A stretch of 64,000 nt of DNA from an uncultured Tateyamaria sp. (lineage in GTDB: Bacteria; Pseudomonadota; Alphaproteobacteria; Rhodobacterales; Rhodobacteraceae), in assembly GCA_947501275.1 (NCBI GenBank), contig CANMVD010000005.1, positions 62,001-126,000 of the forward strand, written 5' to 3'. The notes beneath the pieces were generated by a model. It was not told the DNA's origin. It searched no databases and saw only the letters and a program-made list of their open reading frames with translations. This document shows positions 9,805 through 21,729 of this stretch, one piece after another (the stretch's first letter is position 1; every line of letters begins with the position of its first letter). The translations under genes were made by a program, and so were the position numbers.

Positions 9805-9879
9805 TCCGGCGTAGCTCAGCGGTAGAGCAGTTGACTGTTAATCAATTGGTCGTAGGTTCGATCCCTACCGCCGGAGCCA
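9805..9879 (+). tRNA. tRNA-Asn (GTT), integration site of the adjacent element
   Basis: A 75-nt cloverleaf with acceptor TCCGGCG/CGCCGGA, encoded GCCA end, D-stem GCTC/GAGC, T-loop TTCGATC and anticodon GTT at 9837-9839. The copy is intact. Its 3' 46 nt (9834-9879) are repeated at 20609-20654, showing that an element integrated into the tRNA 3' half and restored the gene, as is usual for tyrosine integrases that target tRNAs. Confidence 0.97.
9834..9879 (+). repeat. attL: 46-bp direct repeat (3' half of tRNA-Asn)
   Basis: Perfect 46-bp match to 20609-20654, beginning ACTGTTAATC and ending GCCGGAGCCA at the tRNA CCA end. Flanks differ on both sides (upstream TTG vs GTA, downstream AAATTC vs TGACAA), so the repeat limits are exact. 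It includes the anticodon loop, the usual crossover region for integrases of this type. Confidence 0.95.
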
Positions 9880-9942
9880 AAATTCCCCTAAAATCAATAG
9901 CTTATACATCTGATTTTCAGGGCTGATTTGGTGCAGAAATGC

Positions 9943-9962
9943 CTAGTAGTCGTCTAGTAGTC
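9943..9962 (+). repeat. Left arm-type repeat pair (CTAGTAGTC x2)
   Basis: CTAGTAGTCGTCTAGTAGTC: two copies of CTAGTAGTC at 11-bp pitch, 64 bp inside attL. A third, inverted partial copy (CTACTAGG) is near 9979. The same tandem pair, differing at one base, sits just inside the right end at 20457-20476. Paired short repeats at both ends fit arm-type binding sites of the DUF4102-type integrase. Confidence 0.75.
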
Positions 9963-9981
9963 ACCCACCCCACTGCGGCTA

Positions 9982-10263
9982 CTAGGACGATTCAACGGGC
10001 TTGGTGATATGCACCGCTTTCAGCTTCGGCATCAGTTCCCAGATCACGCGGGCGTCTTTGAACCCGGCGGTGCCTTTCTGGTGATTCACGGCCACCCGGC
10101 GCAGTCGCATCAGATCAGCATCGGACAAGCCCGCGTCTTTTAGTTGGCCCAGCCGTTGCGACAAAGTCCATTCAATCAGGTCGCCAAGACACGCCCTGAT
10201 CTCGTGAATGCTGGCATCGGGTGCGGGCTTAAACGGCAGTGAGGATTTGGTCACAGGCATCAT
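9982..10263 (-). CDS. Uncharacterised satellite protein, last gene of the capsid operon
   Basis: A 93-residue protein not recognised as a known family. Its mostly helical sequence (SIHEIRACLGDLIEWTLSQRLGQLKDAGLSDADLMRLRRVAVNH) is charged and contains no cysteine-based metal site. The start overlaps the previous stop by 4 bp, so it is translated with the structural genes. A connector, completion or small-terminase role is conceivable from position only; nothing in the sequence proves one. Confidence 0.7.
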   Translation of the reverse strand: MMPVTKSSLPFKPAPDASIHEIRACLGDLIEWTLSQRLGQLKDAGLSDADLMRLRRVAVNHQKGTAGFKDARVIWELMPKLKAVHITKPVESS

Positions 10264-10649
10264 GCGTTCCGAATGTTGGGTGCTTCATCGGCGGGCAAGC
10301 TGGTGCAGTCGAGGGTGACGGATACGCCCAGCACGTCACCAGCATGAACACTCAGCACGGCATAGAACACACCGTCTAGCAGGATCAGCGCTAAGCCATT
10401 GGGGGCCACATCCGATATGATGGTGACGCGGTGACTACCCTCATACGAAGCGGCAACGGTGAGATTGGTTTCTTTGGTGCGATCCAAATAGCCGTAGGTT
10501 TGGCTGATCCGGTCATATTGCATTTGACCTTCGGCGTCGTACACGGTTGTGCCGTTGTCTTCGGACACACCATAAAGAACCGCTTGCTTGTAGAGCGGGG
10601 AGTGTTTGGCCATGCGCAGTTGCGCTTGCATGGGTGTCAGAGTGTTCAT
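10260..10649 (-). CDS. Uncharacterised satellite structural-operon protein
   Basis: A 129-residue protein, not recognised. The N-terminal third is polar and helical. The C-terminal part looks beta-rich (TNLTVAASYEGSHRVTIISDVAPNGLALILLDGVFYAVLSVHAGDVLGV...), which could suit a head-completion or decoration protein, but that is inference from position after portal. It overlaps portal upstream (ATGA) and the next gene downstream by 4 bp each. Confidence 0.75.
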   Translation of the reverse strand: MNTLTPMQAQLRMAKHSPLYKQAVLYGVSEDNGTTVYDAEGQMQYDRISQTYGYLDRTKETNLTVAASYEGSHRVTIISDVAPNGLALILLDGVFYAVLSVHAGDVLGVSVTLDCTSLPADEAPNIRNA

Positions 10650-11653
10650 TCCCAGCCCACCAGTTTCATCGCTTTGTCGAGTTCCACACCGGCACCCGTC
10701 AGCACGCCCACGGCTCTTGCACGGCCCGCCACATCTGCGCTCATCATCTGGTCAATGGACACGCCGGTCACGCCCAGCTTTGCTCTCAGTTCGGGCAGCA
10801 TCATCTTGGCCATCGGCAGAACGGTTTGCAGGGCGAATAATCTATAGCCCTCGCGCATTGCCCCGGCGTTGCCGCTCCCCGTGGTGAGTGCCGGTGGAAT
10901 GCCAGCTGCGTTTAACAGCCGATGATGCAGGCTGTCCGTAAAGGGATTGAGGTCTGCCCTTTGCAGGTCAGGGGTAAGGTCTACCTTGCGCCATTCGGAG
11001 CGTTCACCGCCGGTGTGGTGGGCAAGGTCGCTCTTGGATGCAATCACCGCCAGTGATCCGCTACGCAGCCCTGAGGTCGCTTTCTGGCGTTCTTCCGGGG
11101 CAATGTTTGCTGGGAACGGCAGCACACCCTTGCCTGCGTAGTTGGTGGCGGTGGACACGGCTTGCTCAATCTCAGCCATCAAGGCGGGGCTGAGGCCCAT
11201 CATCCGCCACGGGCTGCGCCCGCGCCACGGCTGAGCAGGATCAGGGTTGATCGTGAAGTGCAGCACTTCATCCTCAACCGCCTTGATGGTCTCGGTCTTG
11301 TTCACGCGAGGGATATGCAGGTGATACTGGCCTTCGCTCACCTGATCCCAATACGGGACGGATTGCAGGTCTAGCTGGCCTCTGGTGAGACGGATGTGCC
11401 AGCATGACTCCCCACGAAACAACAGGTCGCGGGCGATGGTGGACAGCACGTTGGGGTCAATTGGCTCTGGCGCGGTCTCCACCATGCTCAGCCCGCTGGA
11501 CCAGAAATGCAGGGCGGTGCCGATGGTGGCGCTCAAAGGCACACCCTGATCCGACACCAGCCCTTGGCGACGGGTGTTGATAAAGTCAGCGGTCACTGTG
11601 CCGAATGCCCGCGTCTCAATCTGGGGGGACTTGCGCTTGAAGGGCCAGATCAT
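10646..11653 (-). CDS. HK97-family phage portal protein
   Basis: A 335-residue portal, which would form the dodecameric DNA-entry ring at one capsid vertex. WPFKRKSP at the N-terminus, VSTATNYAGKGVLPFPANI and LNPFTDSLHHRLLNAAGIPPALTTGSGNAGAMREGYRLF (stem/clip region of HK97 portals) support the call. It is shorter than many HK97 portals (about 400). It lies downstream of capsid, protease and connector, whereas HK97-type phages normally place portal right after TerL. Four-base overlaps on both sides. Confidence 0.9.
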   Translation of the reverse strand: MIWPFKRKSPQIETRAFGTVTADFINTRRQGLVSDQGVPLSATIGTALHFWSSGLSMVETAPEPIDPNVLSTIARDLLFRGESCWHIRLTRGQLDLQSVPYWDQVSEGQYHLHIPRVNKTETIKAVEDEVLHFTINPDPAQPWRGRSPWRMMGLSPALMAEIEQAVSTATNYAGKGVLPFPANIAPEERQKATSGLRSGSLAVIASKSDLAHHTGGERSEWRKVDLTPDLQRADLNPFTDSLHHRLLNAAGIPPALTTGSGNAGAMREGYRLFALQTVLPMAKMMLPELRAKLGVTGVSIDQMMSADVAGRARAVGVLTGAGVELDKAMKLVGWE

Positions 11654-12219
11654 ATGTGCACCTCGCCTGATAGCAGGGCACCAGCACCAGAGCCGTACAT
11701 CACACCTTTGAGGTCTTCGCGCGTAAGCGATGAATCCCCTGCGGATTGGCTGCGGAATTCACGGCGCAAGGGATTTTGGATGATTTGATAGGCGGCGAGG
11801 TTCCACACCGCTTGCCGTACATGCGGCCCTGCAGTGGCACCGGGCGTGGTGGCGGCATGGCTCAGGCGGTATAGGGAACTGGGTTCCAGTTCGATCATGC
11901 CCAAGCCCGCGATGTAGGTGTCCTGCCACGGCATCCATGTGCCGTTTGCCAGACACTCAACAGTCAATTCTTCTGGGAACGGATAGCGCGGCCAAACCCA
12001 TGTGATGGGCGAGTGTACTTTGATGATCACGCGACCCGATGTCATGTCCCGGTAAGTGCGTCCGGTGAAGGTTTCCACCTGCACCCATGCGGCCTCAATC
12101 ATGCTGGTGGCGTCGTCTTCACTCACGCCCGTTTCCAGAGCAAGTGCGACAGGATCAACGCCCTCTGGAACAGCCCCGAACGTCCATTGTGGTTCAAAGT
12201 GAGTCACGGCGTCATTCAT
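11650..12219 (-). CDS. Putative head-tail connector (gp6-like) protein
   Basis: A 189-residue protein resembling phage head-tail connector/adaptor proteins. An acidic helical N-terminus (GVSEDDATSMIEAAWVQVETFTGRTYRD) leads into a beta-rich middle (VECLANGTWMPWQDTYIAGLGMIELEPSSLYRL) and a helical end (VRQAVWNLAAYQIIQNP). The first part matches the usual connector pattern of a short helix bundle with FTGRxY. The role is inferred from this and from its place between protease and portal. Confidence 0.7.
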   Translation of the reverse strand: MNDAVTHFEPQWTFGAVPEGVDPVALALETGVSEDDATSMIEAAWVQVETFTGRTYRDMTSGRVIIKVHSPITWVWPRYPFPEELTVECLANGTWMPWQDTYIAGLGMIELEPSSLYRLSHAATTPGATAGPHVRQAVWNLAAYQIIQNPLRREFRSQSAGDSSLTREDLKGVMYGSGAGALLSGEVHI

Positions 12220-12806
12220 GGCAAAATCACCCTATGTGGCGTGCTGTGCAATTGATTGCACGACATCTTGCGAAGTTCGGCGGATGTGGTGGGGTATGCA
12301 GGGCGAGTGACCAGACTTAGCTCGTAGAGTACCGCGTGGGCGATTTGCCTGATCTTTACGGATGGGTTGCCCGGCTCAGGCACAAGCGTCTCAGCATCGG
12401 CCACAACGTTCTTGGGTGGCACGCGAAACCCCGGTGAAACGCCCGTCACCAGCCCCGCACCGATCATGGCGAGGGCATCGGTGATATGGGTCGCACGCTC
12501 TGCGCCTTCTGGAATCTCTGCGAAGAATTCCAGTGCTTTATCGGTGTCTTCTAAAGTGAGATTGCCTGCTTGCCGCGATGCGAGCGGCTTTCCGTAGTCA
12601 TGCCCGAACAGCAGATGGATGTCCCGGCTTAGGTCTTCGAGTGCGAACGCGAATGCGCCAGCAGCGAATGTCTCTTTGCGGACGGTGCCCCGGTCGCTCA
12701 TCACGGCCAAGGCCCCGTAGGGAAACCGGCCCGCAATCAACGGGCGCTTATTGCGCTGGCGCACTTCGAGGGCGTCAACGTCCCATATCATGCGAGCCGG
12801 TTCCAT
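12216..12806 (-). CDS. HK97-family prohead protease
   Basis: A 196-residue capsid maturation serine protease of the herpesvirus-assemblin fold. It would cleave the delta domain from the capsid protein after prohead assembly. LIAGRFPYG, RDIHLLFGHDYGKPLA (His69 candidate) and GLVTGVSPGFRVP (Ser124 candidate) are the expected motifs in order. It directly follows the capsid gene, the reverse of the usual protease-capsid order. The last 15 codons contain a 16-bp palindrome also found in the element's noncoding region. Confidence 0.9.
   Translation of the reverse strand: MEPARMIWDVDALEVRQRNKRPLIAGRFPYGALAVMSDRGTVRKETFAAGAFAFALEDLSRDIHLLFGHDYGKPLASRQAGNLTLEDTDKALEFFAEIPEGAERATHITDALAMIGAGLVTGVSPGFRVPPKNVVADAETLVPEPGNPSVKIRQIAHAVLYELSLVTRPAYPTTSAELRKMSCNQLHSTPHRVILP
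12246..12261. repeat. 16-bp palindrome, copy 1 (GTGCAATTGATTGCAC)
   Basis: Perfect 7-bp arms around TG. Its reverse complement GTGCAATCAATTGCAC matches 15 of 16 bases at 17167-17182. Both copies have CAAGATGT next to them, on opposite sides. Located in the 3' end of the protease gene. Possible binding site of a satellite or helper protein, or a packaging signal. Confidence 0.5.
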
Positions 12807-14038
12807 TACGCGACGCTCACATTCGTGATGCGCTTGAAGCGAGTAGCAAGGCGCTGCACCAAGACGTCTTGGAAGCTGAACACTGTCAGTGCCACCTTGC
12901 CCGTTTTTGACTCACTGTAGGGGTCTACGATCAGTTCAGGACTGCCCCAGTTCACCATCCAGGCATGTTGCGCAGGCGCTCCCACGTAGACGTTGCTCAG
13001 GTCGTTCGTGATGCCGGACACTTGCGAGGAAAACGTCATGTTCGACACGATCTTCTTGGCTTGATCGTATTCGGTCAGGATATCGCCAAACGTGCCTGTC
13101 AAAAGCGTGTGCAGGTGATACGGAACGCCCGCAACATGGACGCCATTTAGGTCGTTCAGCTTGGCGCTGACCATCACGTCAGTCATCCACCGCACCAGCG
13201 ACGAATAACCAATCACCGCGCTCTCATTGTCGTTTGGCGAAGACAGCAGCGTCTCAAGGCCAGCGGGTTGATTGTCCGTGCCGGTGCCTTGGAAGGCGGC
13301 CAAGTCCATGGCTTCGCGAATGACTTCTGCCAGATCACGCCGCAGCATCGGTTGCAGGGCCGAGTTCTGGCGAATGGCTTGGCGGCTGAGAAGATACCGG
13401 GCCGTCAGCGTCTTGATGCCCGGTTCCTGCACGTTCGTGTTGATCGTGGCAGCGTCCACCCCTGCGCCTTCTGACACCCATGCGGCGCTGGTACCGTCGG
13501 TGAGTTCCGGGAAACGGGGTTGGCCGGATACTTGGATTGTCTGGAAACCAAATTTCTGAGCGGCACTTGCCTCAAAAACGCGTTCAAGGGCCTGCATGGT
13601 CGGGCGCGATGCGAGTTCACCAGAAGACGCATCGGGTGCCGTAACGGTGGCGTCTGCCCGTTGTTCAAGCGCTTCCCATGGGAACCGGGTGCCCTTCATG
13701 GCTTTGCCGTCCCGTTTTTCCAGTTCGGCGCTGATTTCAGCTTCCCGACCAGACAAAGGTTTTTGGTCTTCGAGAGCTTCAACCATCTTTGCGATGTCAA
13801 ACGACCGACATTCGGCGTTAAAGTCCTTGTCTGCGGTATCAGGCTCTTTGATCTTCTCACGCTCAGCGTCTTCGAGGATCAACGCTGTCCGCAACTCCAC
13901 CTCTGCGCTTTGATATTCATCTGTCAGGGACCGCAGTTCTGTGCGGGCATCATCGGTGATTTCATCGACCTTCTGAATCTCGGCCATTTTTTCGCGCCGC
14001 TTCGACTGCGCCAATTGAATTTCTTGGGATTTCAGCAT
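12806..14038 (-). CDS. HK97-type major capsid protein with scaffolding delta domain
   Basis: A 410-residue HK97-fold capsid protein. Residues 1-85 are a charged coiled coil (the delta scaffolding domain), followed by a linker near 110-125 where the prohead protease would cut, then the shell domain. FGFQTIQVSGQPRFPELTDGTSAAWVSEGAGV and AEVIREAMDLAAFQGTGTDNQPAGL are classic family segments. The ATG at 14038 follows GAAGGAAC; the longer open frame to 14089 lacks such a site. Having its own capsid gene is what separates cf-PICIs from classical PICIs. Confidence 0.93.
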   Translation of the reverse strand: MLKSQEIQLAQSKRREKMAEIQKVDEITDDARTELRSLTDEYQSAEVELRTALILEDAEREKIKEPDTADKDFNAECRSFDIAKMVEALEDQKPLSGREAEISAELEKRDGKAMKGTRFPWEALEQRADATVTAPDASSGELASRPTMQALERVFEASAAQKFGFQTIQVSGQPRFPELTDGTSAAWVSEGAGVDAATINTNVQEPGIKTLTARYLLSRQAIRQNSALQPMLRRDLAEVIREAMDLAAFQGTGTDNQPAGLETLLSSPNDNESAVIGYSSLVRWMTDVMVSAKLNDLNGVHVAGVPYHLHTLLTGTFGDILTEYDQAKKIVSNMTFSSQVSGITNDLSNVYVGAPAQHAWMVNWGSPELIVDPYSESKTGKVALTVFSFQDVLVQRLATRFKRITNVSVA

Positions 14039-14051
14039 TGTTGAGGTTCCT

Positions 14052-14390
14052 TCATTGGGCGGCTTGAATGGCCGTGAGAAAGGCGTCACGCCCCTTCACT
14101 GGGGTGCGGCGGCGTTGCTTGGGTTTAGGTTCGTGTTTCTTGAAGCGTTCGGCGTTGGTGCGCTTCGCGTGGCAAGAGGCGCAGAGCCATTGCAGGTTGC
14201 GCATGTCGAATGGATCAATGCCCTGCGCGGCGCAGTTTGCGCGGCTGACAATGTGGTCACCTTGCCCAGCCATGCCGGTGAAACAGTTGCAGCACTCGCA
14301 CCGGAAATTGGCGCGCAGGGCCAGTGCTCGGCGCACGCGTTGCCAGCGGGCGGTGTTGATCGTGGATTTTTCAGACTGGTGAGGCATCAA
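14052..14390 (-). CDS. HNH endonuclease (packaging-associated)
   Basis: A 112-residue HNH nuclease. Zinc-binding CxxC pairs at Cys31/Cys34 and Cys70/Cys73 flank the active-site Asp45-His46 (GDHIVSR) and Asn65. Small HNH proteins beside TerL are needed for cos cleavage in HK97-like phages and occur in cf-PICIs. It overlaps the TerL stop by 4 bp. Its position here, after TerL and not before it, is slightly unusual. A role in genome packaging is inferred from this context. Confidence 0.9.
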   Translation of the reverse strand: MMPHQSEKSTINTARWQRVRRALALRANFRCECCNCFTGMAGQGDHIVSRANCAAQGIDPFDMRNLQWLCASCHAKRTNAERFKKHEPKPKQRRRTPVKGRDAFLTAIQAAQ

Positions 14391-15916
14391 AACACCTCAA
14401 CTTCATATTCAGGCTTGGGCGCTTCGCGGTCGCGCATATAGGCCCCAGCGGCGAGGATCAGGGCTGCGGCCACATCATTGCGCCCGTCGCGGTGCGCGCG
14501 GTCCAGTTGAACCGCCCCAGTGGTGCTGACCTTGCAATCGGCTTCCGCAAGCGACGCCTCTAGCAGTAGGTTGCGGCATAGCTTGGCCTTGCCCGCTAAA
14601 AACATTCGGCGTGTGGCAAGGATATCGGCGTTGCCGTCTTTGGGACCGTTGGCGCGAAGATTGAGGGGCCAGTCCACACCGGCCTTGGCAAGAGCGTTGC
14701 GCAACTCACCTTCGCGGTATCGGTCCCCGGTGACGCTTTGCACGGGATGGCCCCGTATCATGTCCAGCACATGCGGGATGAATTCGGACAGTTCGGTGAC
14801 GTGGCCGGTGGTCTCTTTGAGTTCGCCGCGCTCAGCGCATTGCACCCATGTCATGCCCACCAGATCACGCTTGCCGCGCTGCAACAGATTCATATCAGCA
14901 GATGGAAAGGCCCCTACCGCCCTCACAACGCCGCTTTCAAAGACAGCGACGGCGGCAGTCATGGACGCGGCCCCGCCTAGATCAAGGCCAAGCCACACGG
15001 GTTCGCCGGAGATGGGTTCGGCGGCTTCATCATAGGCGCGTTGCAGCGTCTTGTATTCGAGTAGCAGTTGCCGTTGCGGATCAAGTGGAGCGTTGAGTTG
15101 CCAAGCCATGAAAGCCGTGGTGGTGCCTGCGGCCTCCGCCTCAGTAAATGCGTCTTCGAGGAAGCGGCGGGACTTAATGCCAGAAGCCAACCCCGGATTG
15201 ACCTTTTCCCATAGGTCGCGGTCACCCGGATCAGCATCTAAGGGCGCGGACCAGCAATGGACCTTGGTGGAACGCGATGGGCGCTCTATCCGTTCGTTAA
15301 ACTGTTTGCTGGTGCCTCTTGTGCCGGTGATGATCAGCCTGCCGTCGCGGGCGGCGAGGCTATCGGTGAGGTTTTGAATGACTTCGCTGTTATCGGTGAG
15401 AAGGCCCGCTTCATCCACGAGCGCGAAGTCGAGGCTCAAGCCGTGGCCTTGGGTCTTGGACCCGGACAGGATTTCAAGGCGGGAATTGTTGTCACCCAGG
15501 ACAACGCCGGGGGCCGGATTCTTGCGCACCTTGATGTGATCCAGCCCGTTCGCCTCGCACAACTCTTGAATGGCGAGGGCAAGCATCAATGAATGATTTT
15601 CGGAAGGGCTGGCAATGGCACCGCGCCAGCCGGGCAAGTGCAGCGGTGACCCTTCCGTCAGATAGGCCAGTGCCAAGGCGGCACACATGCTCGTCTTGCC
15701 GTTCTTACGGGCAATGCTGAATAGGACCGTGCGGTGAAGCGGTGATCCGAATTCATCATTCGCTAGATGATCGTCAATGACGTCCCGCTGAAAGTCATGC
15801 AGCACATACGGCTTGCCACGACTGATACCGCTGGGGATTTTGAATTGCTCAAGCCACGAGGCAAGTGCCTCGGTTTTGTCGATTGGCCGATGTGGTTTCT
15901 TGAGTTTTAGAGCCAT
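14387..15916 (-). CDS. Terminase large subunit
   Basis: The 509-residue ATPase/nuclease motor that cuts and pumps DNA into the prohead. ATPase domain: Walker A-like SIARKNGKTS (about 67-76) and Walker B FALVDEA (Asp168-Glu169). Nuclease domain of RNase H fold: Asp312 (LGLDLGG), Asp398 (VTGDRY) and Asp481 (GRNDVAAALILA). All catalytic residues are present. No small terminase gene is evident upstream; the preceding gene is divergent. First gene of the leftward structural operon, whose promoter should lie within 15917-16003. Confidence 0.95.
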   Translation of the reverse strand: MALKLKKPHRPIDKTEALASWLEQFKIPSGISRGKPYVLHDFQRDVIDDHLANDEFGSPLHRTVLFSIARKNGKTSMCAALALAYLTEGSPLHLPGWRGAIASPSENHSLMLALAIQELCEANGLDHIKVRKNPAPGVVLGDNNSRLEILSGSKTQGHGLSLDFALVDEAGLLTDNSEVIQNLTDSLAARDGRLIITGTRGTSKQFNERIERPSRSTKVHCWSAPLDADPGDRDLWEKVNPGLASGIKSRRFLEDAFTEAEAAGTTTAFMAWQLNAPLDPQRQLLLEYKTLQRAYDEAAEPISGEPVWLGLDLGGAASMTAAVAVFESGVVRAVGAFPSADMNLLQRGKRDLVGMTWVQCAERGELKETTGHVTELSEFIPHVLDMIRGHPVQSVTGDRYREGELRNALAKAGVDWPLNLRANGPKDGNADILATRRMFLAGKAKLCRNLLLEASLAEADCKVSTTGAVQLDRAHRDGRNDVAAALILAAGAYMRDREAPKPEYEVEVF

Positions 15917-16003
15917 ACATCTGGCCTAGAACCCATGAGTCCAGACGGTCAACAGGATAAGGCCAGATTAGAGGTCTAGTGGTTCAAGGGCGGGGCCAGT
16001 ATC

Positions 16004-17041
16004 ATGGCTCTAGGCAAGAACGAGCGGTGCAAAATGCAGTTTATCTACAGTGAGCCTCAAACAGAATTTGAGAAAATGATCGGTGGCTGTCGCCATATCA
16101 ACGCCTTTGGCACCATTCAGAGAGGCGACGCAGATCGACTCGTGGACATAATCCGCAAGTGCGAAGTCCCACCACAAACGAACGTTTATATCAATTCCAC
16201 GGGCGGCGATTTGGAAGAGGGTTTAAAGATTGGCTGCGTTATTCGCGCTTACAACTTAGAGACTTCGATTGGCACGTACACGCTGGAGCCACCTCAGGGC
16301 GATGTGCCTATGGCGTCTAGAACCCTTACACCTGGAGTGTGCTACAGCGCAGCAACAATGGCCTTCGCGGGGGGGCGTTTACGGCACTTCCCCAAAGGCT
16401 CAAAATTCGGTGTTCACCGTTTCATGTTTCAAACACCAGACCCTAGTAACGTGGAGAAGTCCCAAGAACTATCTGCCAGCATGGCATCTTTTTTAGAGAA
16501 AATGGGGGTTGCGCTTTCGTTTCTTCAAACATCTGCAGCGGTCCCTAGCGATACCATTTTGGAGTTAGATGAAACCCAGCTTGAGTCGCACCAAATGGTT
16601 ACAGGTGGTCAAACAGGAGTCGAGTGGGGCACCGAGATGCGCAGAAACATGATGTACGTTCGCGGTACCAGAGACTCTATCTACGGCAAACACAAGGTCA
16701 TGCTAGCGCACGCGAAAGACGCTGGTTTTATGTTCTGTGCAGTAATCGAGGCGCAAGGACGCCAACAGGAACTTTGTGATCTCGGTCTGGTGGAGATCGT
16801 CGTCAATGGCGAAGATCATCGGATCAACATTTCGGACAGATGCGACCGAATGGCAAACGATGTAGACGTCATCCTCATCTCAAAAATCACAAGTCAAGAA
16901 GCGGCTCTTATTGCTTACAGTAACAGTTTCGGTGTGCAAATTCGCTTTTGGGAAGATTCAGAGATGTTTCTCGGCATCTCCGCGATGGATACGACAGGCG
17001 GACAAGATAGCCTCATAACGCTCTACAAAAACATGAGCTAG
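16004..17041 (+). CDS. ClpP/SppA-fold serine protease-like protein with C-terminal extension (satellite cargo)
   Basis: A 345-residue cytoplasmic protein, the only plus-strand gene in the satellite. Residues 30-200 form a ClpP/crotonase-like domain related to COG3904: oxyanion turn NSTGGD (64-69), candidate nucleophile Ser115 in CYSAATMAFAGG and His138 in FGVHRF, with spacing close to ClpP. The about 130 C-terminal residues are not recognised. Codon use and AT content look unlike the packaging operon, suggesting separate acquisition. PICIs carry anti-phage cargo at comparable positions, so a defence role is plausible but unproven. The start could also be the internal ATG at 16034. Confidence 0.8.
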   Translation: MALGKNERCKMQFIYSEPQTEFEKMIGGCRHINAFGTIQRGDADRLVDIIRKCEVPPQTNVYINSTGGDLEEGLKIGCVIRAYNLETSIGTYTLEPPQGDVPMASRTLTPGVCYSAATMAFAGGRLRHFPKGSKFGVHRFMFQTPDPSNVEKSQELSASMASFLEKMGVALSFLQTSAAVPSDTILELDETQLESHQMVTGGQTGVEWGTEMRRNMMYVRGTRDSIYGKHKVMLAHAKDAGFMFCAVIEAQGRQQELCDLGLVEIVVNGEDHRINISDRCDRMANDVDVILISKITSQEAALIAYSNSFGVQIRFWEDSEMFLGISAMDTTGGQDSLITLYKNMS

Positions 17042-17363
17042 ATGGACAACAGCCCAACTCCCTTGTCCCGCCTTCAGCGGTACTAGGCGCGCTCCCTCTA
17101 CCTCCCGACAGTGGTCTCCAAGGGGTTATATACAAGATTTGGTTCAGATATGCACTGATAGTGGTCGTGCAACCAATTGCACAAGATGTGGCATGTCACC
17201 GAGCGGCTATCGCGAGATGAATGTAGACTGAACCCATAGGCTCTGCCATGATCAACACACGGGACAGCATAGATCAGCCACCCTGTGACAGGGCTTAGAC
17301 TACTAGCGGCGGGCTGGTGAGTGAATCAGGATTGTGAGGGGTGGTCCACTGTGTGGGCCACGT
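17042..17363. other. Noncoding region of the satellite (candidate cos or regulatory region)
   Basis: About 320 bp without a credible gene, between the 3' ends of the convergent ClpP-like gene and the small ORF at 17364. It contains the palindrome GTGCAACCAATTGCAC (17167-17182), a stray arm-type motif GACTACTAG (17298-17306) and a GTGG/CCAC-rich dyad near 17341-17361. No terminator with a T-run is obvious. A cos site would fit in such a region, but no cleavage sequence can be identified. Confidence 0.4.
17167..17182. repeat. 16-bp palindrome, copy 2 (GTGCAACCAATTGCAC)
   Basis: Arms GTGCAA and TTGCAC around CCAA; 15 of 16 bases equal to the reverse complement of 12246-12261. It is followed directly by AAGATGT. 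Its recurrence in a noncoding stretch of the same element suggests a protein-binding site, but two copies are limited evidence. Confidence 0.5.
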
Positions 17364-17645
17364 TCACCACATGGCGTGAAGGTCGATACCAGCCTGCTCT
17401 GACGCCAAGGCAACAAACCTGCGCAATACCGCATTGGTGAGCCACGTCTTTTCAGACAACTGGAACACCCAACTCAAAATCTGCCCCGCGTCTGCACACT
17501 GATCCAGCGGAATATCGTAAGTTGATGGCGCGTCACAAAGAACGAACAGATCAATCACTATGTGACCGTCTTCGATGAATACCGTGCGCTCCATCAATTC
17601 GCCGTGTTCAAGGGCTGACTGGCGTACTTCATCGAGATTGCTCAT
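17364..17645 (-). CDS. Uncharacterised small satellite protein
   Basis: A 93-residue acidic protein starting MSNLDEVRQSALEHGELMERTVFIEDGHIVIDLFVLCDAPSTYDIPLDQC. No family recognised. The amphipathic beta/alpha pattern suggests a small folded cytoplasmic protein. The ATG at 17645 was preferred to the frame's upstream start (17684), although its ribosome site is weak. It could be an accessory or interference gene of the satellite. Confidence 0.55.
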   Translation of the reverse strand: MSNLDEVRQSALEHGELMERTVFIEDGHIVIDLFVLCDAPSTYDIPLDQCADAGQILSWVFQLSEKTWLTNAVLRRFVALASEQAGIDLHAMW

Positions 17646-17698
17646 GGCGCTGTTACTTTCTACTGTTCGAGGTCCGTAACACACTAGTGGCTGCGACT

Positions 17699-17920
17699 TC
17701 AGGCTTCAATTGCATAGGCTGGCAGATCGGGCGCGGCGCGTCTCTCTATCCTACTCAGGCACGTTGCCTTGTTGTCCCGTGGAAACTGATCATCTGGCAT
17801 GTTGCTTTCCCTGAGCGCAGCGAGGGGTAAGCCTTCTGGTTTATCTATGTCCCTTTCTTTTCTTCCTCCTGTGAGTAATAGACAAACAAGAAGTATTACT
17901 CCTGTAGATATATGGAACAA
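17699..17920 (-). CDS. Doubtful small ORF downstream of the Rep-like gene
   Basis: A 73-codon frame beginning with TTG at 17920. A shorter version (MPDDQFPRDNKATC..., 33 residues) has GGGAAAG before it. The 5' half coincides with nested inverted repeats at 17847-17934, so the frame may be fortuitous. Listed because the satellite is otherwise densely coding. Confidence 0.2.
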   Translation of the reverse strand: MFHISTGVILLVCLLLTGGRKERDIDKPEGLPLAALRESNMPDDQFPRDNKATCLSRIERRAAPDLPAYAIEA

Positions 17921-17934
17921 AAAGAAAGGGACAT
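17847..17934. repeat. Nested inverted repeats beside the Rep-like gene (candidate replication origin)
   Basis: The outer perfect 15-bp arms ATGTCCCTTTCTTTT (17847-17861) and AAAAGAAAGGGACAT (17920-17934) enclose inner perfect 8-bp arms GAGTAATA (17873-17880) and TATTACTC (17894-17901). The right outer arm touches the stop codon of the Rep-like gene. The purine/pyrimidine-biased, AT-rich structure stands out from the surroundings. PICI replication origins typically lie next to the rep gene; a regulatory RNA or attenuator is the alternative. Confidence 0.5.
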
Positions 17935-18761
17935 CACCCTGACACGTCCTTGATAGGGTCGATTTCAGAAGAGTAATCCGGCTCCCAATCGTGCAATGCA
18001 GCCGTGTCCCGTTCTGCCCACCATTCTTCCCAGAAGTCCACTTCCTCTTTCGGCACTTCTGACAAGTTGGTCTTCATGTGACTGGCCACGAAAGCACTCT
18101 CCGCACACATCCAGAACACCCGCAACGTCCGTATGTTCGGGTAGTGGTGAAACAGGTGTGCCTTGCCGGGTTTTAGCTTGATGAAAGACGCGCCTTTGTT
18201 CTCTTCCAAAATACCGCACATGGGCGTCTCAAGGTCTTCGGTCTTGTACTTTGACAGGTCTTTGGTTCGTTTCCATCCATCCGCGCTGATCGCATATTTG
18301 AAAATATCTAATTGCCAGTCTTGCCGAAAGTCTTGGGCCAGCCCGATCAAGCACCCATACTCTTTGGGCGTTACGTCTTTCTTGGGTTTCCACTCGCGCC
18401 CTGCAGCTTCGCAGATGGCCTTCTGTTTGGCGTTCACGGCGTCGTTCTGCACGATATTGTCTAGAAAAATCTTGGCCATTGTGGCGGCTAGTCGAGACGG
18501 TTGATTAGGGTCAGGCTTGCCGATCCTGACAAGGGCAGCTTGTCTCCCCTCCACCCGCTTTCGGAGTGTGTCAAACGGCGCTTTCTGGAAGACGCGGGTC
18601 ACGGTTTTTGCGCTCACGCCCGCCATTTCGGCCCAATCTTGACGCGGGCGTATGGCCCAAGTCTTGCCTTCAAGTAGTTGGCCCTGTTCTTCGATAGTCT
18701 GGCGCACCAGTGTCTCCAGCCGCACTTGCGCACTGGAATCTGCATTGCTAGATTCTGGCAT
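17934..18761 (-). CDS. HTH-containing protein, candidate satellite replication initiator or regulator
   Basis: A 275-residue protein, not assigned to a named family. Residues 38-60 (RPRQDWAEMAGVSAKTVTRVFQK) form a convincing helix-turn-helix. The rest is basic and alpha-rich, with several Trp-containing helices near the acidic C-terminus. No Walker or primase motif is visible. ATG 18761 follows GGGGAG with good spacing; the longer frame to 18986 runs through the alpA terminator and part of alpA and was rejected. The position after int-alpA is where PICIs carry replication genes, so a Rep role is a reasonable hypothesis only. Confidence 0.75.
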   Translation of the reverse strand: MPESSNADSSAQVRLETLVRQTIEEQGQLLEGKTWAIRPRQDWAEMAGVSAKTVTRVFQKAPFDTLRKRVEGRQAALVRIGKPDPNQPSRLAATMAKIFLDNIVQNDAVNAKQKAICEAAGREWKPKKDVTPKEYGCLIGLAQDFRQDWQLDIFKYAISADGWKRTKDLSKYKTEDLETPMCGILEENKGASFIKLKPGKAHLFHHYPNIRTLRVFWMCAESAFVASHMKTNLSEVPKEEVDFWEEWWAERDTAALHDWEPDYSSEIDPIKDVSG

Positions 18762-18815
18762 GTAACATGCTCCCCTTTGCCGAGGTCGGATCGTGTTCTC
18801 TTTTGCTTCGCAGGC

Positions 18816-18850
18816 AAAAACGGCCCCCGGATCAGCGTCCGGGGGCTTTT
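18816..18850 (-). terminator. Strong hairpin terminator after alpA
   Basis: Nine-bp perfect arms GCCCCCGGA (18823-18831) and TCCGGGGGC (18838-18846) with a 6-nt loop. On the minus strand it is followed by CGTTTTTG, giving a Rho-independent terminator between alpA and the Rep-like gene. TTTT also follows on the plus strand. It implies that the Rep-like gene has its own promoter or depends on read-through. Confidence 0.75.
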
Positions 18851-18852
18851 GC

Positions 18853-19077
18853 TTATTCCACCCTATTGGCGTCTTGAAATGCCAACACATCCGAGCGGCG
18901 GTAGCGCACCGTCCGATGGCCATGTTTGTTATAGGGTATCTTGGGGGACGTCCCGTTGGCGCGGGATTCAGACCTGTCCTTATCAAGGAAGCGGCGGGAA
19001 ACGCCCAGCAGCAAAGCGGCTTGCTCAGTGGTCAACTGATCGGAAAGAGATTGCGATTTTTTCAGATGTAGGGCCAT
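18853..19077 (-). CDS. AlpA-like HTH regulator / excisionase
   Basis: A 74-residue MerR/AlpA-type winged-HTH protein: LTTEQAALLLGVSRRFLDKDR is the recognition HTH, and IPYNKHGHRTVRYRRSDVLAFQDAN is the typical beta-wing of excisionase-family proteins. AlpA-type proteins in P4-like satellites and gram-negative PICIs activate integrase/excision genes and are thought to switch the island on. It lies 180 bp downstream of int on the same strand and is closed by a strong terminator. The 19078-19258 gap should hold its promoter. Confidence 0.85.
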   Translation of the reverse strand: MALHLKKSQSLSDQLTTEQAALLLGVSRRFLDKDRSESRANGTSPKIPYNKHGHRTVRYRRSDVLAFQDANRVE

Positions 19078-19258
19078 CAGCCATTCTCCACGGATCGAAG
19101 CACAACCGACGGCTTGGCCGTGCGGTCATGGGGTTACCATTTTCTTCGCGCCTCAGGCTTCCTGTCCTTGCAGACCCGTAACCTGAACCCTCCGTGGTAT
19201 AACGACGCTCGCATCATCGCCGATGCTGGTTAAACAATGAGGCTTGCCTTAACAGTTT

Positions 19259-20446
19259 TCAAGTCCCCCGTTGTTTGTCGATGTGGTCTGATACCATCTG
19301 CACAGACTTTCGCAGCGTTTCCGGGTTCTTTGACACTTGATAGCCAAGGGTCACATTGCCCCCGCTGGCATGATTCAACAGACGCATGATTTTGGACTGT
19401 TGTAGGTCCAGATCGGTGGCGATGGTGGCAAAGGATCGGCGCAGATCGTGAAAGTTCACATCCCAGCCCAGAGCCTTTCTAAATGCCGTGAGGGTTTTTC
19501 TAGGGTCACCATAAGGCGTAGCCCCCCAAACGTACCTCTCACCCTCTGTGCGCTCTTGCAGGCGTTCAAACAGGTCCAGAGTTTGATCGGCCATGGGAAG
19601 CGTTAGGGCTTCCCCGTTCTTGGCCCGTTCAGCCGTGATGGTGAACGTCTTTGCGTCAAGGTCTACGTCTGCCCAAGCCAGATTTGTAGCCTCACCCATC
19701 CGCATCCCAGTGCGGGCTAACAGTTCCATGAATACCTTGAAGTTCTCGCCCGCGTGCTTGTGGCGGTTTGAGGTGGTTTCGAGGTTTCCCAAGGCTGAGA
19801 AAAACTTGGGCCAGTCGGACACGAAAGACTGTTTCCGTTTGGCCTTGGGCAAAAGCTTTTTTGCTCGGACAATTTCGGCTGGGCATTGGGGCAAGAGCAT
19901 GTTGCCTTCCCTGTCTGTCACATCCGCCCGTGCCCAGTTCCAACATGATTTGAACGTGCGAACAGCCAAAGCGGCACCACTTGGTGTTCGGTCAATCATC
20001 TCTTTGAACCTGGCTTGAAACAGCTTTGGCGTGATCCGACGCAGTTCAGTGTTATACCAGTCGCCAAACTCGCGGGACATGGTGGCGCGATAGTTGGCGG
20101 CAGTGCTTTCACGGTGCCCGCGTTCTTTTAACCATCCGTCTACGGCTTGGCTGAGGGTCATCAGCTTAGCTCTTGCAAGGCGCAGTTCGGCATTCCTATC
20201 CTGCCCATCAGCCATTTCAGCTAATGCCTTCATAGCCAGCTTACGGGCATCGCTCAGGGTAAGTTTGTCGGTTCGGCCAAGGGTCACACGGCGCGGCCTG
20301 CCACGTACGCGGCTCTCCGCATAGTATGCCTTCGCCGTTTTCCCGACACGAACGCCAAAGCCCGGTTGTGCATCATCCACGACGAACCTTTGACCCCCAG
20401 TGGTGAGGGGCAAGTCACGCACAAGGTTGGCGGTGAGACGTGGCAT
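19259..20446 (-). CDS. Tyrosine integrase with N-terminal DUF4102 arm-binding domain
   Basis: A 395-residue P4-type integrase. The N-terminal arm-DNA-binding domain (residues 1-90, GFGVRVGKTAKAYYAESRVRGRPRRVTLGRTDKLTLSDARK) is followed by a SAM-like core-binding domain and the catalytic domain. Catalytic residues are intact: Arg249 (TGMRMGE), His333 and Arg336 (FHDLRRSF), His359 and Tyr369 (TLGYQ). The gene starts 163 bp inside attR and just downstream of the repeated CTAGTAGTC sites, which lie in its promoter region. This arrangement could allow autoregulation. Confidence 0.95.
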   Translation of the reverse strand: MPRLTANLVRDLPLTTGGQRFVVDDAQPGFGVRVGKTAKAYYAESRVRGRPRRVTLGRTDKLTLSDARKLAMKALAEMADGQDRNAELRLARAKLMTLSQAVDGWLKERGHRESTAANYRATMSREFGDWYNTELRRITPKLFQARFKEMIDRTPSGAALAVRTFKSCWNWARADVTDREGNMLLPQCPAEIVRAKKLLPKAKRKQSFVSDWPKFFSALGNLETTSNRHKHAGENFKVFMELLARTGMRMGEATNLAWADVDLDAKTFTITAERAKNGEALTLPMADQTLDLFERLQERTEGERYVWGATPYGDPRKTLTAFRKALGWDVNFHDLRRSFATIATDLDLQQSKIMRLLNHASGGNVTLGYQVSKNPETLRKSVQMVSDHIDKQRGT

Positions 20447-20456
20447 GGCAGTGCTC

Positions 20457-20476
20457 CTAGTAGTCGCCTAGTAGTC
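20457..20476 (+). repeat. Right arm-type repeat pair (CTAGTAGTC x2), in the integrase promoter region
   Basis: CTAGTAGTCGCCTAGTAGTC matches 19 of 20 bases of 9943-9962, in the same orientation. It lies 10 bp upstream of the integrase start codon and 132 bp inside attR. Predicted integrase arm sites, and possibly an autoregulatory operator for int. Confidence 0.75.
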
Positions 20477-20608
20477 GGCTTATGGGAATCTACAGGCAAA
20501 CATAGGAATCCATGGAGTCGGACACAACACCCTAAAATTATTTAATTTCATGCCCTTGTGGTGCTATGGGTGGCGATGGGATAGTATCGGAACGAACAGC
20601 CTTGGGTA

Positions 20609-20654
20609 ACTGTTAATCAATTGGTCGTAGGTTCGATCCCTACCGCCGGAGCCA
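20609..20654 (+). repeat. attR: 46-bp direct repeat of the tRNA-Asn 3' half
   Basis: Perfect copy of 9834-9879 without the 5' half of the tRNA, so it cannot encode a tRNA. It marks the right boundary of the satellite and the left boundary of the adjacent remnant. Confidence 0.95.
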
Positions 20655-20661
20655 TGACAAG

Positions 20662-20694
20662 CCCTTTAAGATTTTGATCTTAAAGGGTTTTTTT
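20662..20694 (+). terminator. Rho-independent terminator just past attR
   Basis: Perfect 11-bp arms CCCTTTAAGAT (20662-20672) and ATCTTAAAGGG (20677-20687) with a 4-nt loop, then seven Ts. It may be a tRNA-Asn terminator displaced 10.8 kb from the intact tRNA by the satellite; no such hairpin follows the intact copy. Confidence 0.85.
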
Positions 20695-20710
20695 GTGTTT
20701 TGCGGATTTG

Positions 20711-20743
20711 AATGTTGCGGGTTTTGCAAAATCCCGCAACATT
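20711..20743. repeat. Inverted pair of AATGTTGCGGG / CCCGCAACATT
   Basis: Perfect 11-bp arms (20711-20721 and 20733-20743) separated by 11 bp. The core CCCGCAACA recurs twice in tandem at 21565-21587, on the other side of the DUF4145 gene. Candidate arm-type sites of a lost integrase, or an operator 30 bp upstream of the gene. Confidence 0.6.
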
Positions 20744-20772
20744 CTCGACATAAGACTAGCTTGGAATGGAAC

Positions 20773-21551
20773 ATGAAGTACGTATCCCCATCGATCCGTG
20801 AAACAGCATTCAACTGCCCACATTGTGGAGCACTTGCACGGCAATACTGGCACACAGTCCACGCCAATCCGATGGATAAGACGAAGCTGCCGTTTGTTAT
20901 GGACGAAGCCAACTGAAAGAACTCAATCTTGATCATGTGCAAGATAAGGAAGAGCGCAACCGGATTCAGCAATGGGCTAAACGCAAAGCCAAGGGAAGAC
21001 CCTTTCTGGAGGGCAATCAGGGGTATCAAGACTTTGACGTGAACAATGTCTGGATCAGCCGTTGCTATAACTGCGACGATGTCGCGGTATGGATCTACGA
21101 TCGGATGATCTACCCACAGCGCGGTGAAGCGCCACCAGCCAACGCAAACTTACCCGAAGAAATCCGTCGGGAGTACGAGGAGGCAAGTTCGATTCTGGAT
21201 CACTCACCGAGAGGGGCAGCAGCCCTGATCCGATTGGCCATTCAAAAACTATGCAAACACCTATGCCAGCCCGGGACAAACATTAACACGGACATAAAAT
21301 CTCTAGTCGCTTCTGGCCTCGACGCACGTGTTCAGAAAGCACTCGATGCAGTTCGAGTAATCGGGAACAATGCTGTACATCCGGGCCAGATCGATCTTCA
21401 AGATGATCGAGCTACGGCGGAGAGCCTGTTTCGTCTGCTGAACTTGGTTGTAGAAAAAATGATCTCAGAGCCAAAGCACGTTGATGAGGTCTATGCGAGT
21501 TTGCCGGACTCTGGGCGCGAGGCCATAGAGAAGCGCGACCAATCCGACTAG
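20773..21551 (+). pseudogene. DUF4145 domain protein, frameshifted
   Basis: Two adjacent frames together match the DUF4145 pattern. Residues 1-48 start MKYVSPSIRETAFNCPHCGALARQYWH, with a CPHC zinc motif, and stop at TGA 20914-20916. The downstream frame continues KELNLDHVQDKEERNRIQQWAKRKAKGRPFLEGN, then a CYNC pair and the helical DUF4145 core (HSPRGAAALIRLAIQKLCKHL... VRVIGNNAVHPG). One missing base at about 20913-20914 (AACTGAAAG for a likely AACCTGAAAG) explains the break. DUF4145 domains also occur in restriction/defence proteins; function here unknown. A sequencing error cannot be excluded. Confidence 0.8.
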
Positions 21552-21564
21552 TTTAATCAGGTTT

Positions 21565-21587
21565 CCCGCAACAATTCCCGCAACATT
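21565..21587 (+). repeat. Tandem direct repeat of CCCGCAACA
   Basis: CCCGCAACA occurs at 21565-21573 and 21577-21585, the second copy extended to CCCGCAACATT, as at 20733-20743. It sits about 80 bp before the third att fragment. Spacing and placement mirror integrase arm sites. Confidence 0.6.
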
Positions 21588-21668
21588 TTCGGAAAGCGCA
21601 CATCTGGAACGGTGGATTTAAGCGTTTAAAATCAGTATTTTATGTCGATGTTAGACTTTCATGCAACA

Positions 21669-21684
21669 CCTACCGCCGGAGCCA
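21669..21684 (+). repeat. Third partial copy of the tRNA-Asn 3' end (remnant att site)
   Basis: CCTACCGCCGGAGCCA, identical to the last 16 nt of tRNA-Asn with its encoded CCA; similarity stops abruptly upstream. It marks the right limit of the decayed second element. Host sequence resumes with the monooxygenase gene about 45 bp further on. Confidence 0.75.
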
Positions 21685-21729
21685 ATTCCACCTTACCGCA
21701 GATTGGACGCATCCGCGCATCACGTGCGA

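Follow-up and report, generated by a model that had tools for sequence, protein, structure and literature searches.

A probable capsid-forming phage satellite in a tRNA-Asn gene of an uncultured Tateyamaria and its relatives in Rhodobacteraceae

The stretch of DNA analysed here, hereafter the window, comprises 64,000 nucleotides of the genome of an uncultured Tateyamaria sp. of the family Rhodobacteraceae (contig CANMVD010000005.1, positions 62,001 to 126,000). Its subject is a 10.8-kb integrated element in a tRNA-Asn gene, which a sequence-only reading had described as a complete, att-bounded, capsid-forming phage satellite. The boundaries are borne out: an exact direct repeat of 46 nt, found by repeat search, flanks 9834-20654 with a spacing of 10,775 bp (Table 1), and its left copy is the 3' part of the tRNA-Asn gene that ARAGORN places at 9805-9879. 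At the element's two ends, the motif CTAGTAGTC occurs in pairs (9943 and 9954; 20457 and 20468), which we infer to be putative arm sites of the integrase; the window holds five copies, against 0.05 expected. The fifth, on the minus strand at 17298-17306, stands alone between the presumed cargo gene and orf106.

Most of the gene set proposed from the sequence was recovered by family profiles, namely the integrase, the AlpA-like protein, the HNH endonuclease, the large terminase (TerL), the major capsid protein (mcp), and the prohead protease. The portal protein matched PF04860 at 32 bits, which is significant though under the Pfam cut-off of 39.1, and the head connector is assigned by position and conservation only. 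TerL is related to that of phage HK97 at 25%. The four-base gene overlaps described earlier are present at five junctions (10260/10263, 10646/10649, 11650/11653, 12216/12219, and 14387/14390). Family alignment (A1) places the capsid start at about 14038, at Met18 of the listed open reading frame (ORF), so that the capsid and HNH genes need not overlap; the helix-turn-helix (HTH) gene is likelier to start at 18761, after alpA, than at 18986. Two small conserved genes lie beyond the portal gene. The first, orf129, has no family match of its own, and neither the window's copy nor that of the related locus L040 has a match among phages; from its position, we suspect a head-closure (stopper) protein. 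The second, orf93, gave no trusted family match in profile scans. Sequence searches of the PDB returned a match for the capsid (8gta_A, 3.3e-5) and nothing useful for orf129 or the connector. The HTH protein, which had no family match in profile scans, is by position only a possible replication initiator; the protein at the same place in locus L037 matches phrog_270 (1.9e-7) and is weakly similar to the window's HTH protein (E 0.011).

Table 1. Features of the element, in window coordinates.
Feature	Position	Strand	Evidence
att copy in 3' end of tRNA-Asn	9834-9879	+	46-nt exact repeat; ARAGORN
Paired CTAGTAGTC, possible integrase arm sites	9942-9962	+	copy count; 95% match to other end
orf93, small conserved gene at end of head operon	9982-10263	-	homologues at same place in relatives
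orf129, conserved gene after portal	10260-10649	-	conserved in relatives
Portal protein	10646-11653	-	PF04860 9.9e-8; phrog_12 2.7e-4
Presumed head connector	11650-12219	-	place between protease and portal conserved in relatives
Prohead protease, S78	12216-12806	-	PF04586 2e-17; phrog_80 1.6e-22
Major capsid protein, HK97 type	12806-14038	-	PF05065 3.7e-12; phrog_617 1.9e-20; listed ORF to 14089
HNH endonuclease	14052-14390	-	PF01844 7.7e-5; phrog_589 3.9e-19; phrog_4581 'terminase small subunit' 4.6e-9
Large terminase (TerL)	14387-15916	-	phrog_9 9.2e-54; PF20441 2.8e-10
345-aa ClpP-like gene, opposite strand, probable cargo	16004-17041	+	weak: phrog_30575 4.5e-5; PF00574 0.14
orf106, function unassigned	17364-17684	-	phrog_12459 4e-20
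HTH protein	17934-18761	-	homologue in L003; listed ORF to 18986
AlpA-like excisionase/activator, HTH_17	18853-19077	-	PF12728 2.9e-7; phrog_66 4.6e-5
Tyrosine integrase	19259-20446	-	PF00589 1.4e-17; phrog_1 6.7e-49
Paired CTAGTAGTC, possible integrase arm sites	20456-20476	+	copy count; 95% match to other end
Second att copy	20609-20654	+	46-nt exact repeat

Tail and lysis genes were sought with family profiles in the window's ORFs and with PHROG profiles in 100 non-core ORFs (at least 78 aa, out of 126) of 15 att-bounded elements described below; a second scan took 41 hand-chosen ORFs, all within the 100. Among the families listed (25 of 59 in the first scan and 25 of 30 in the second), none bears the name of a tail tube, tape measure, baseplate, fibre, endolysin, or holin. 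Those of the first scan include primases, helicases, integrases, regulators, head closure Hc1, and a virion structural protein, and those of the second include head closure, head–tail adaptors, and one 'tail completion or Neck1' match (E 0.0028). Within that scope, and with a few weak exceptions given below, the earlier claim that the element has no recognizable tail or lysis genes holds for the window and extends to the 15 elements. The space beyond the portal gene is 0.3-3.4 kb in these elements; the tape measure gene of phage RcZahn by itself takes 5.0 kb.

The closest relatives of the element form clade A, a group of 19 capsids that are 47-70% identical to the window's. Scans of IMG/VR yielded one locus by TerL, five by capsid, and 18 by capsid alignment (12 of those new), and the genome collection contributed a locus of Jannaschia pagri (L037). 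A capsid search of 394 genomes from the host's family gave matches in 60 at E <= 1e-3 and homologues in 38 at E < 1e-25, a cut set after the list was seen. Besides the window's own, the capsids of genomes G213, G092, and G302 are 61-66% identical over nearly the full length, and that of G053 is 61% identical over 66 residues. The genes recur in the order int-alpA-...-terL-hnh-(neck genes)-mcp-protease-connector-portal-orf129-orf93, not every gene being detected in every locus. Six clade-A elements have att on both sides: the window's, L037, and L062 at tRNA-Asn, L038 at a tRNA-Asn end, L039 at tRNA-Thr, and L040 at tRNA-Pro; members of the clade differ both in the tRNA used and in the integrase. 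Between two close relatives, L037 and L004, the ratio of nonsynonymous to synonymous substitution rates (dN/dS) is 0.04-0.29 in all 11 genes compared, including orf129, orf93, and both neck genes, which shows purifying selection on these genes. The window's element itself has no close relative; compared with L052, its synonymous sites are near saturation (dS 1.3-2.4), and no ratio is therefore claimed for it.

A second group, clade B, has capsids ~30% identical to the window's, mostly from the same host family, in loci that are also satellite-like. We sampled 24 such loci from 21 genomes (L042-L044, L096, L101-L120), all with a portal homologue and 23 with TerL (L114 is cut). Nine of the 24 have a tRNA-type att, its 32-53-nt repeats lying at the ends of tRNAs for Asn, Thr, Phe, or Cys. 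In L102, L103, L116, and L117, the integrase candidate is an ORF of 336-363 aa on the portal side, adjoining the far att; four members of ORF set A6 match integrase families, in a listing without their names. Genome G213 holds one element of each clade (L038 of clade A, L103 of clade B), and G688, from another family of the class, falls in clade B; a class-wide search gave a match in 8 of 385 genomes. In a capsid tree of 58 rows, quickly inferred by maximum likelihood, the 19 clade-A rows grouped together (SH-aLRT 100), as did 31 clade-B rows (99), the latter being 29 distinct sequences (L015/L043 and L027/L115 are identical), with phages and two outgroup genomes apart. Left out of the tree were L053 and L056 (the elements L038 and L039), the partial contigs L002 and L005, the remnant L041, and the capsid of the host's presumed gene transfer agent (GTA). 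With very long branches to the outgroup, neither the root nor the way in which A and B are related is secure. Capsid matches in phage records are at most 28% identical, and plasmids gave no capsid above 29%. No clade-A capsid was found in a tailed phage, and clade-A loci sit in short elements. One candidate, the 34-kb IMG/VR provirus L053, was considered as a tailed phage with a clade-A capsid and rejected: it contains the 10.4-kb att-bounded element L038.

The elements are uniform in size. Measured as the start-to-start spacing of the att copies, the 15 with a tRNA-type att (six of clade A and nine of clade B; tRNA-Asn, Thr, Pro, Phe, and Cys) span 10,165-11,147 bp, with a mean of 10,594 and a standard deviation of 316. 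Loci L105, L106, and L115 are not among the 15, by a cut made by eye after the list was seen, and L115 would extend the range to 12.1 kb. The narrow range was not imposed by the search, which looked for repeats 7-17 or 7-19 kb apart. The block from TerL to portal has a mean of 5,517 bp (standard deviation 372) and the remainder a mean of 5,124 bp (486), and the two are anticorrelated (r = -0.76; A -0.81, B -0.84), with the proviso that they have a common boundary. A total spread as small arose in 0 of 20,000 shuffles, which ignore kinship. This compensation suggests a packaging limit, and the limit of 10.2-11.1 kb is probably set by the element's own head. The HK97 head has a triangulation number (T) of 7; when its 39.7 kb is scaled by head volume, a T=3 head would hold 11.1 kb and a T=4 head 17.2 kb, and a T=3 head is therefore predicted. 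The narrow size and the compensation between block and remainder make a testable rule, that the head sets the genome.

A link to long-tailed phages comes from a neck protein present in 11 of the 19 clade-A rows, in six of them with a tail-terminator-like partner. The pair, term164 and neck216, lies between hnh and mcp in L003, L004, L037, L054, L057, and L059; neck216 alone occupies that place in L040 and L052, and a neck homologue precedes terL in L001, L061, and L063. No neck gene was found in the other eight rows, the window's included (L058 is cut at terL). On the tree, this distribution of neck genes requires five or more changes. Searching 50,697 phage records with neck216 gave 12 matches, all in phages of Rhizobium (6), Rhodobacter (5), and Agrobacterium (1), with genomes of 94-110 kb among the matches listed (10 of 12). 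Similarly, term164 matches four Rhizobium phages and, in direct comparison, gene 23 of RcZahn (1.8e-14), a phage with an 87-nm head and a 297-nm tail whose lifestyle is given as not determined (PMC8601537). In RcZahn, RHph_TM16, and RHph_I4, the neck/terminator pair directly follows the capsid and adaptor genes, and in RcZahn and RHph_I4 tail genes come next in the stretch seen. In some clade-A satellites, neck216 and term164 have homologues among the neck/minor-tail genes of the ~100-kb siphophages RcZahn and RHph_TM16, whereas the satellite head proteins have no match among the RcZahn, TM16, and HK97 proteins compared (best 0.042; the set was without the HK97 capsid and TerL), and the window's element is without both genes. 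Since the neck genes match and the head proteins do not, some satellites and a group of long-tailed phages have a common head–tail interface and different heads. Neck genes held in common with large siphophages permit a concrete test of a foreign head on a helper tail and point to candidate helpers.

The nearest known systems are the capsid-forming phage-inducible chromosomal islands (cf-PICIs), reportedly described by Alqurainy et al. in 2023, with a prototype in an E. coli O157 strain. Their genes cover capsid, protease, portal, connectors, both terminases, and HNH, while tails have to come from a helper (PMC10690885); they average 14 kb, most known cases being from Enterobacteriaceae, some Firmicutes, Pasteurella, and Morganellaceae (PMC10803314), and have capsids of three clades (PMC11389934). 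Like cf-PICIs as these papers and PMC13230959 present them, the window's element is integrated and carries its own head genes (capsid, protease, the sub-threshold portal, and the connector assigned by position), TerL with HNH, an integrase, an AlpA-like regulator, and att sites, with no recognized tail or lysis genes; AlpA is an activator in an E. coli PICI (PMC6092414). In contrast to cf-PICIs, the Rhodobacteraceae elements measure 10.2-11.1 kb, and in the window's no separate small terminase was recognized. By its gene content, the element probably works like a cf-PICI and is a candidate member of that group. The Streptomyces satellites MulchRoom and MiniFlayer also have their own head and packaging genes, and MulchRoom uses helper tails; unlike the window's element, they have a recognized small terminase and terminal repeats and are actinobacterial (PMC10690885). 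In the open-licence literature searched, we found no description of head-making satellites from the class Alphaproteobacteria. As far as these searches show, what is new is the host group, the pair of clades in Rhodobacteraceae, the narrow range of genome sizes, and the neck cassette. These findings extend head-making satellites to Rhodobacteraceae, with 15 bounded examples that can serve studies of environmental bacteria.

The att sites, the head genes, the lack of recognized tail or lysis genes, and relatives with the same operon in many hosts and near-constant size support the satellite reading. The window very probably holds a complete phage satellite of the capsid-forming kind, from a large Rhodobacteraceae family. 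Its life cycle might run as follows. An infecting tailed phage would trigger the satellite, which AlpA and the integrase would excise, perhaps with the HTH protein aiding replication. TerL with HNH would fill a small head, built from the satellite's own proteins, with a single genome unit, the connector and orf129 would close the head, and the helper would provide the tail and lysis, yielding chimeric particles that could bring the satellite to new cells. A wider model is put forward tentatively, as one we would not yet call probable: an old and abundant Rhodobacteraceae lineage of head-making satellites whose ~10.6-kb size is held by a dedicated T=3 head, with an exchangeable neck cassette setting the helper match. 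Members with neck216 and term164 would dock on the tails of RcZahn-like siphophages (~100 kb), and others, such as the window's, would use other tails, possibly that of the host's GTA.

Several findings weigh against the satellite reading. The negative for tail and lysis genes rests on the families listed, and there are weak matches of the kind sought: an ORF of L062 to an Rz-like spanin (E 0.01), an ORF of L038 to a holin family (E 0.098), and the window's connector, which has no significant family match of its own, to phrog_16194 'tail protein' (E 0.22). A separate small terminase gene was not recognized in profile scans of the window's ORFs; the 'terminase small subunit' match of the HNH protein covers its HNH part, and small terminases diverge fast. 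In clade B, 12 of 24 loci have no repeat of at least 20 nt and three have doubtful ones (L105, 28 nt, 11.3 kb; L106, 23 nt, 9.3 kb, with an integrase candidate outside; L115, 30 nt, tRNA-like, 12.1 kb). The window's element is without the neck genes that some relatives have, which leaves its tail interface unassigned. Five family probes (PF05065, PF04860, PF03237, PF03354, and PF10145) found no helper phage in the host genome, other prophage types not having been sought; PF04860 did not detect the element's own portal, nor PF03354 its TerL, so the probes are not sensitive. They did reveal one other head module, at ~104-124 kb of contig C2 in the host genome G000 (L049), with TerL, portal, capsid, and a 1314-aa ORF, which from its gene sizes and order we take to be GTA-like.

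A decaying prophage, i.e., a once complete phage minus its tail and lysis genes, is an improbable account of the element. Prophages do carry HK97-type head genes and an integrase, and L041 shows that such elements decay; however, the capsid clade has 19 members with none found in a tailed phage, att sites on both sides and tight sizes recur in 15 elements, several tRNAs and integrases are used, and L037 and L004 show purifying selection. Both refuting conditions of the sequence-only reading, tail or lysis genes among the small ORFs and descent by deletion from a single prophage, were tested, and its interpretation is supported. Alternatively, an ordinary PICI-type satellite could travel in helper heads, its own capsid genes interfering with or resizing the helper head, a role for which the capsid homologues of SaPIbov5 offer a precedent (PMC6092414). 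The capsid, protease, portal, connector, TerL, and HNH genes are nevertheless kept as one operon under purifying selection, and we regard this account as highly improbable.

Rhodobacteraceae make GTAs, which have their own tail, and the host's presumed GTA cluster on C2 might favour a GTA-like head module that packages host DNA. RcGTA likewise has an HK97-type alphaproteobacterial head, and the capsid of an E. coli cf-PICI grouped with RcGTA's by structure (PMC12846349). Against this, GTAs package random host DNA (PMC8601537), whereas the element has an integrase, two att sites, no recognized tail genes, and a size that fits a unit genome. The host's GTA-like locus, moreover, is unmatched by the family capsid profile (at most 3.0 bits on its ORFs), and the GTA account is barely credible. 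We give still less credence to a self-sufficient tailless virus; orf93 and orf129 have no assigned function and many relatives come from viral contigs, but some members carry long-tailed-phage genes for a neck and a tail-terminator-like protein, which need a tail to make sense, and no convincing lysis gene was found. A head-making satellite that uses helper tails remains the preferred reading.

The integration site itself is variable among related genomes. The tRNA flank was matched in 20 of 20 genomes of the genus searched, in 19 over ~1,000 bp and in G399 over 123 bp plus a second piece. Comparing 15 regions from 15 genomes of the genus at the site, we found it empty in G400, G409, and G401, where DNA like the window from 27.57 kb onward resumes within 10-21 bp of the tRNA, so much of the window between 9.88 and 27.57 kb is accessory. 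Other islands, each with a second att copy at a tRNA-Asn end, occupy the site in G408 (L090, 15.0 kb, with an integrase, an AlpA-like protein, and a 764-aa ORF) and G404 (L091, 13.2 kb, with long ORFs in addition to a methylase-like one); neither yielded a capsid homologue from the element's family. The remaining ten regions have one att copy within the 2.3-6.4 kb examined. Just outside the right att of the window, a PD-T7-4-like defence gene (20937-21551; PADLOC E 4.7e-74) precedes a 17-nt partial att copy, the third, at 21669-21685; the stretch 20655-21685 may be what is left of another element in this tRNA.

Two slots, before terL and after orf93, hold different genes across members. Besides the window's ClpP-like gene at 16004-17041, which has no relative among phages or in IMG/VR, these include an MtlR/DUF4145-like gene (weak) in L037 (11385-11912), a Trypco2 gene in L039 (5562-6026; PF19631 2.9e-5), an unassigned gene in L006 (3144-4106), and a HEPN-like gene (weak) in L004 (11828-12787). 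The slot genes look like cargo, perhaps for defence; none has a good PADLOC match. Locus L041 of G053 is a clade-A remnant 4.2 kb from tRNA-Asn and without an att repeat, in which the capsid is a fragment and the protease, connector, portal, orf129, and orf93 look intact. In L038/L053, near 4883-5992 of L038, a second integrase with its own 18-nt repeats marks a tandem insertion in the same site. Finally, a metallo-beta-lactamase-like ORF lies beside the tRNA-Asn gene in J. pagri, likewise in the window.

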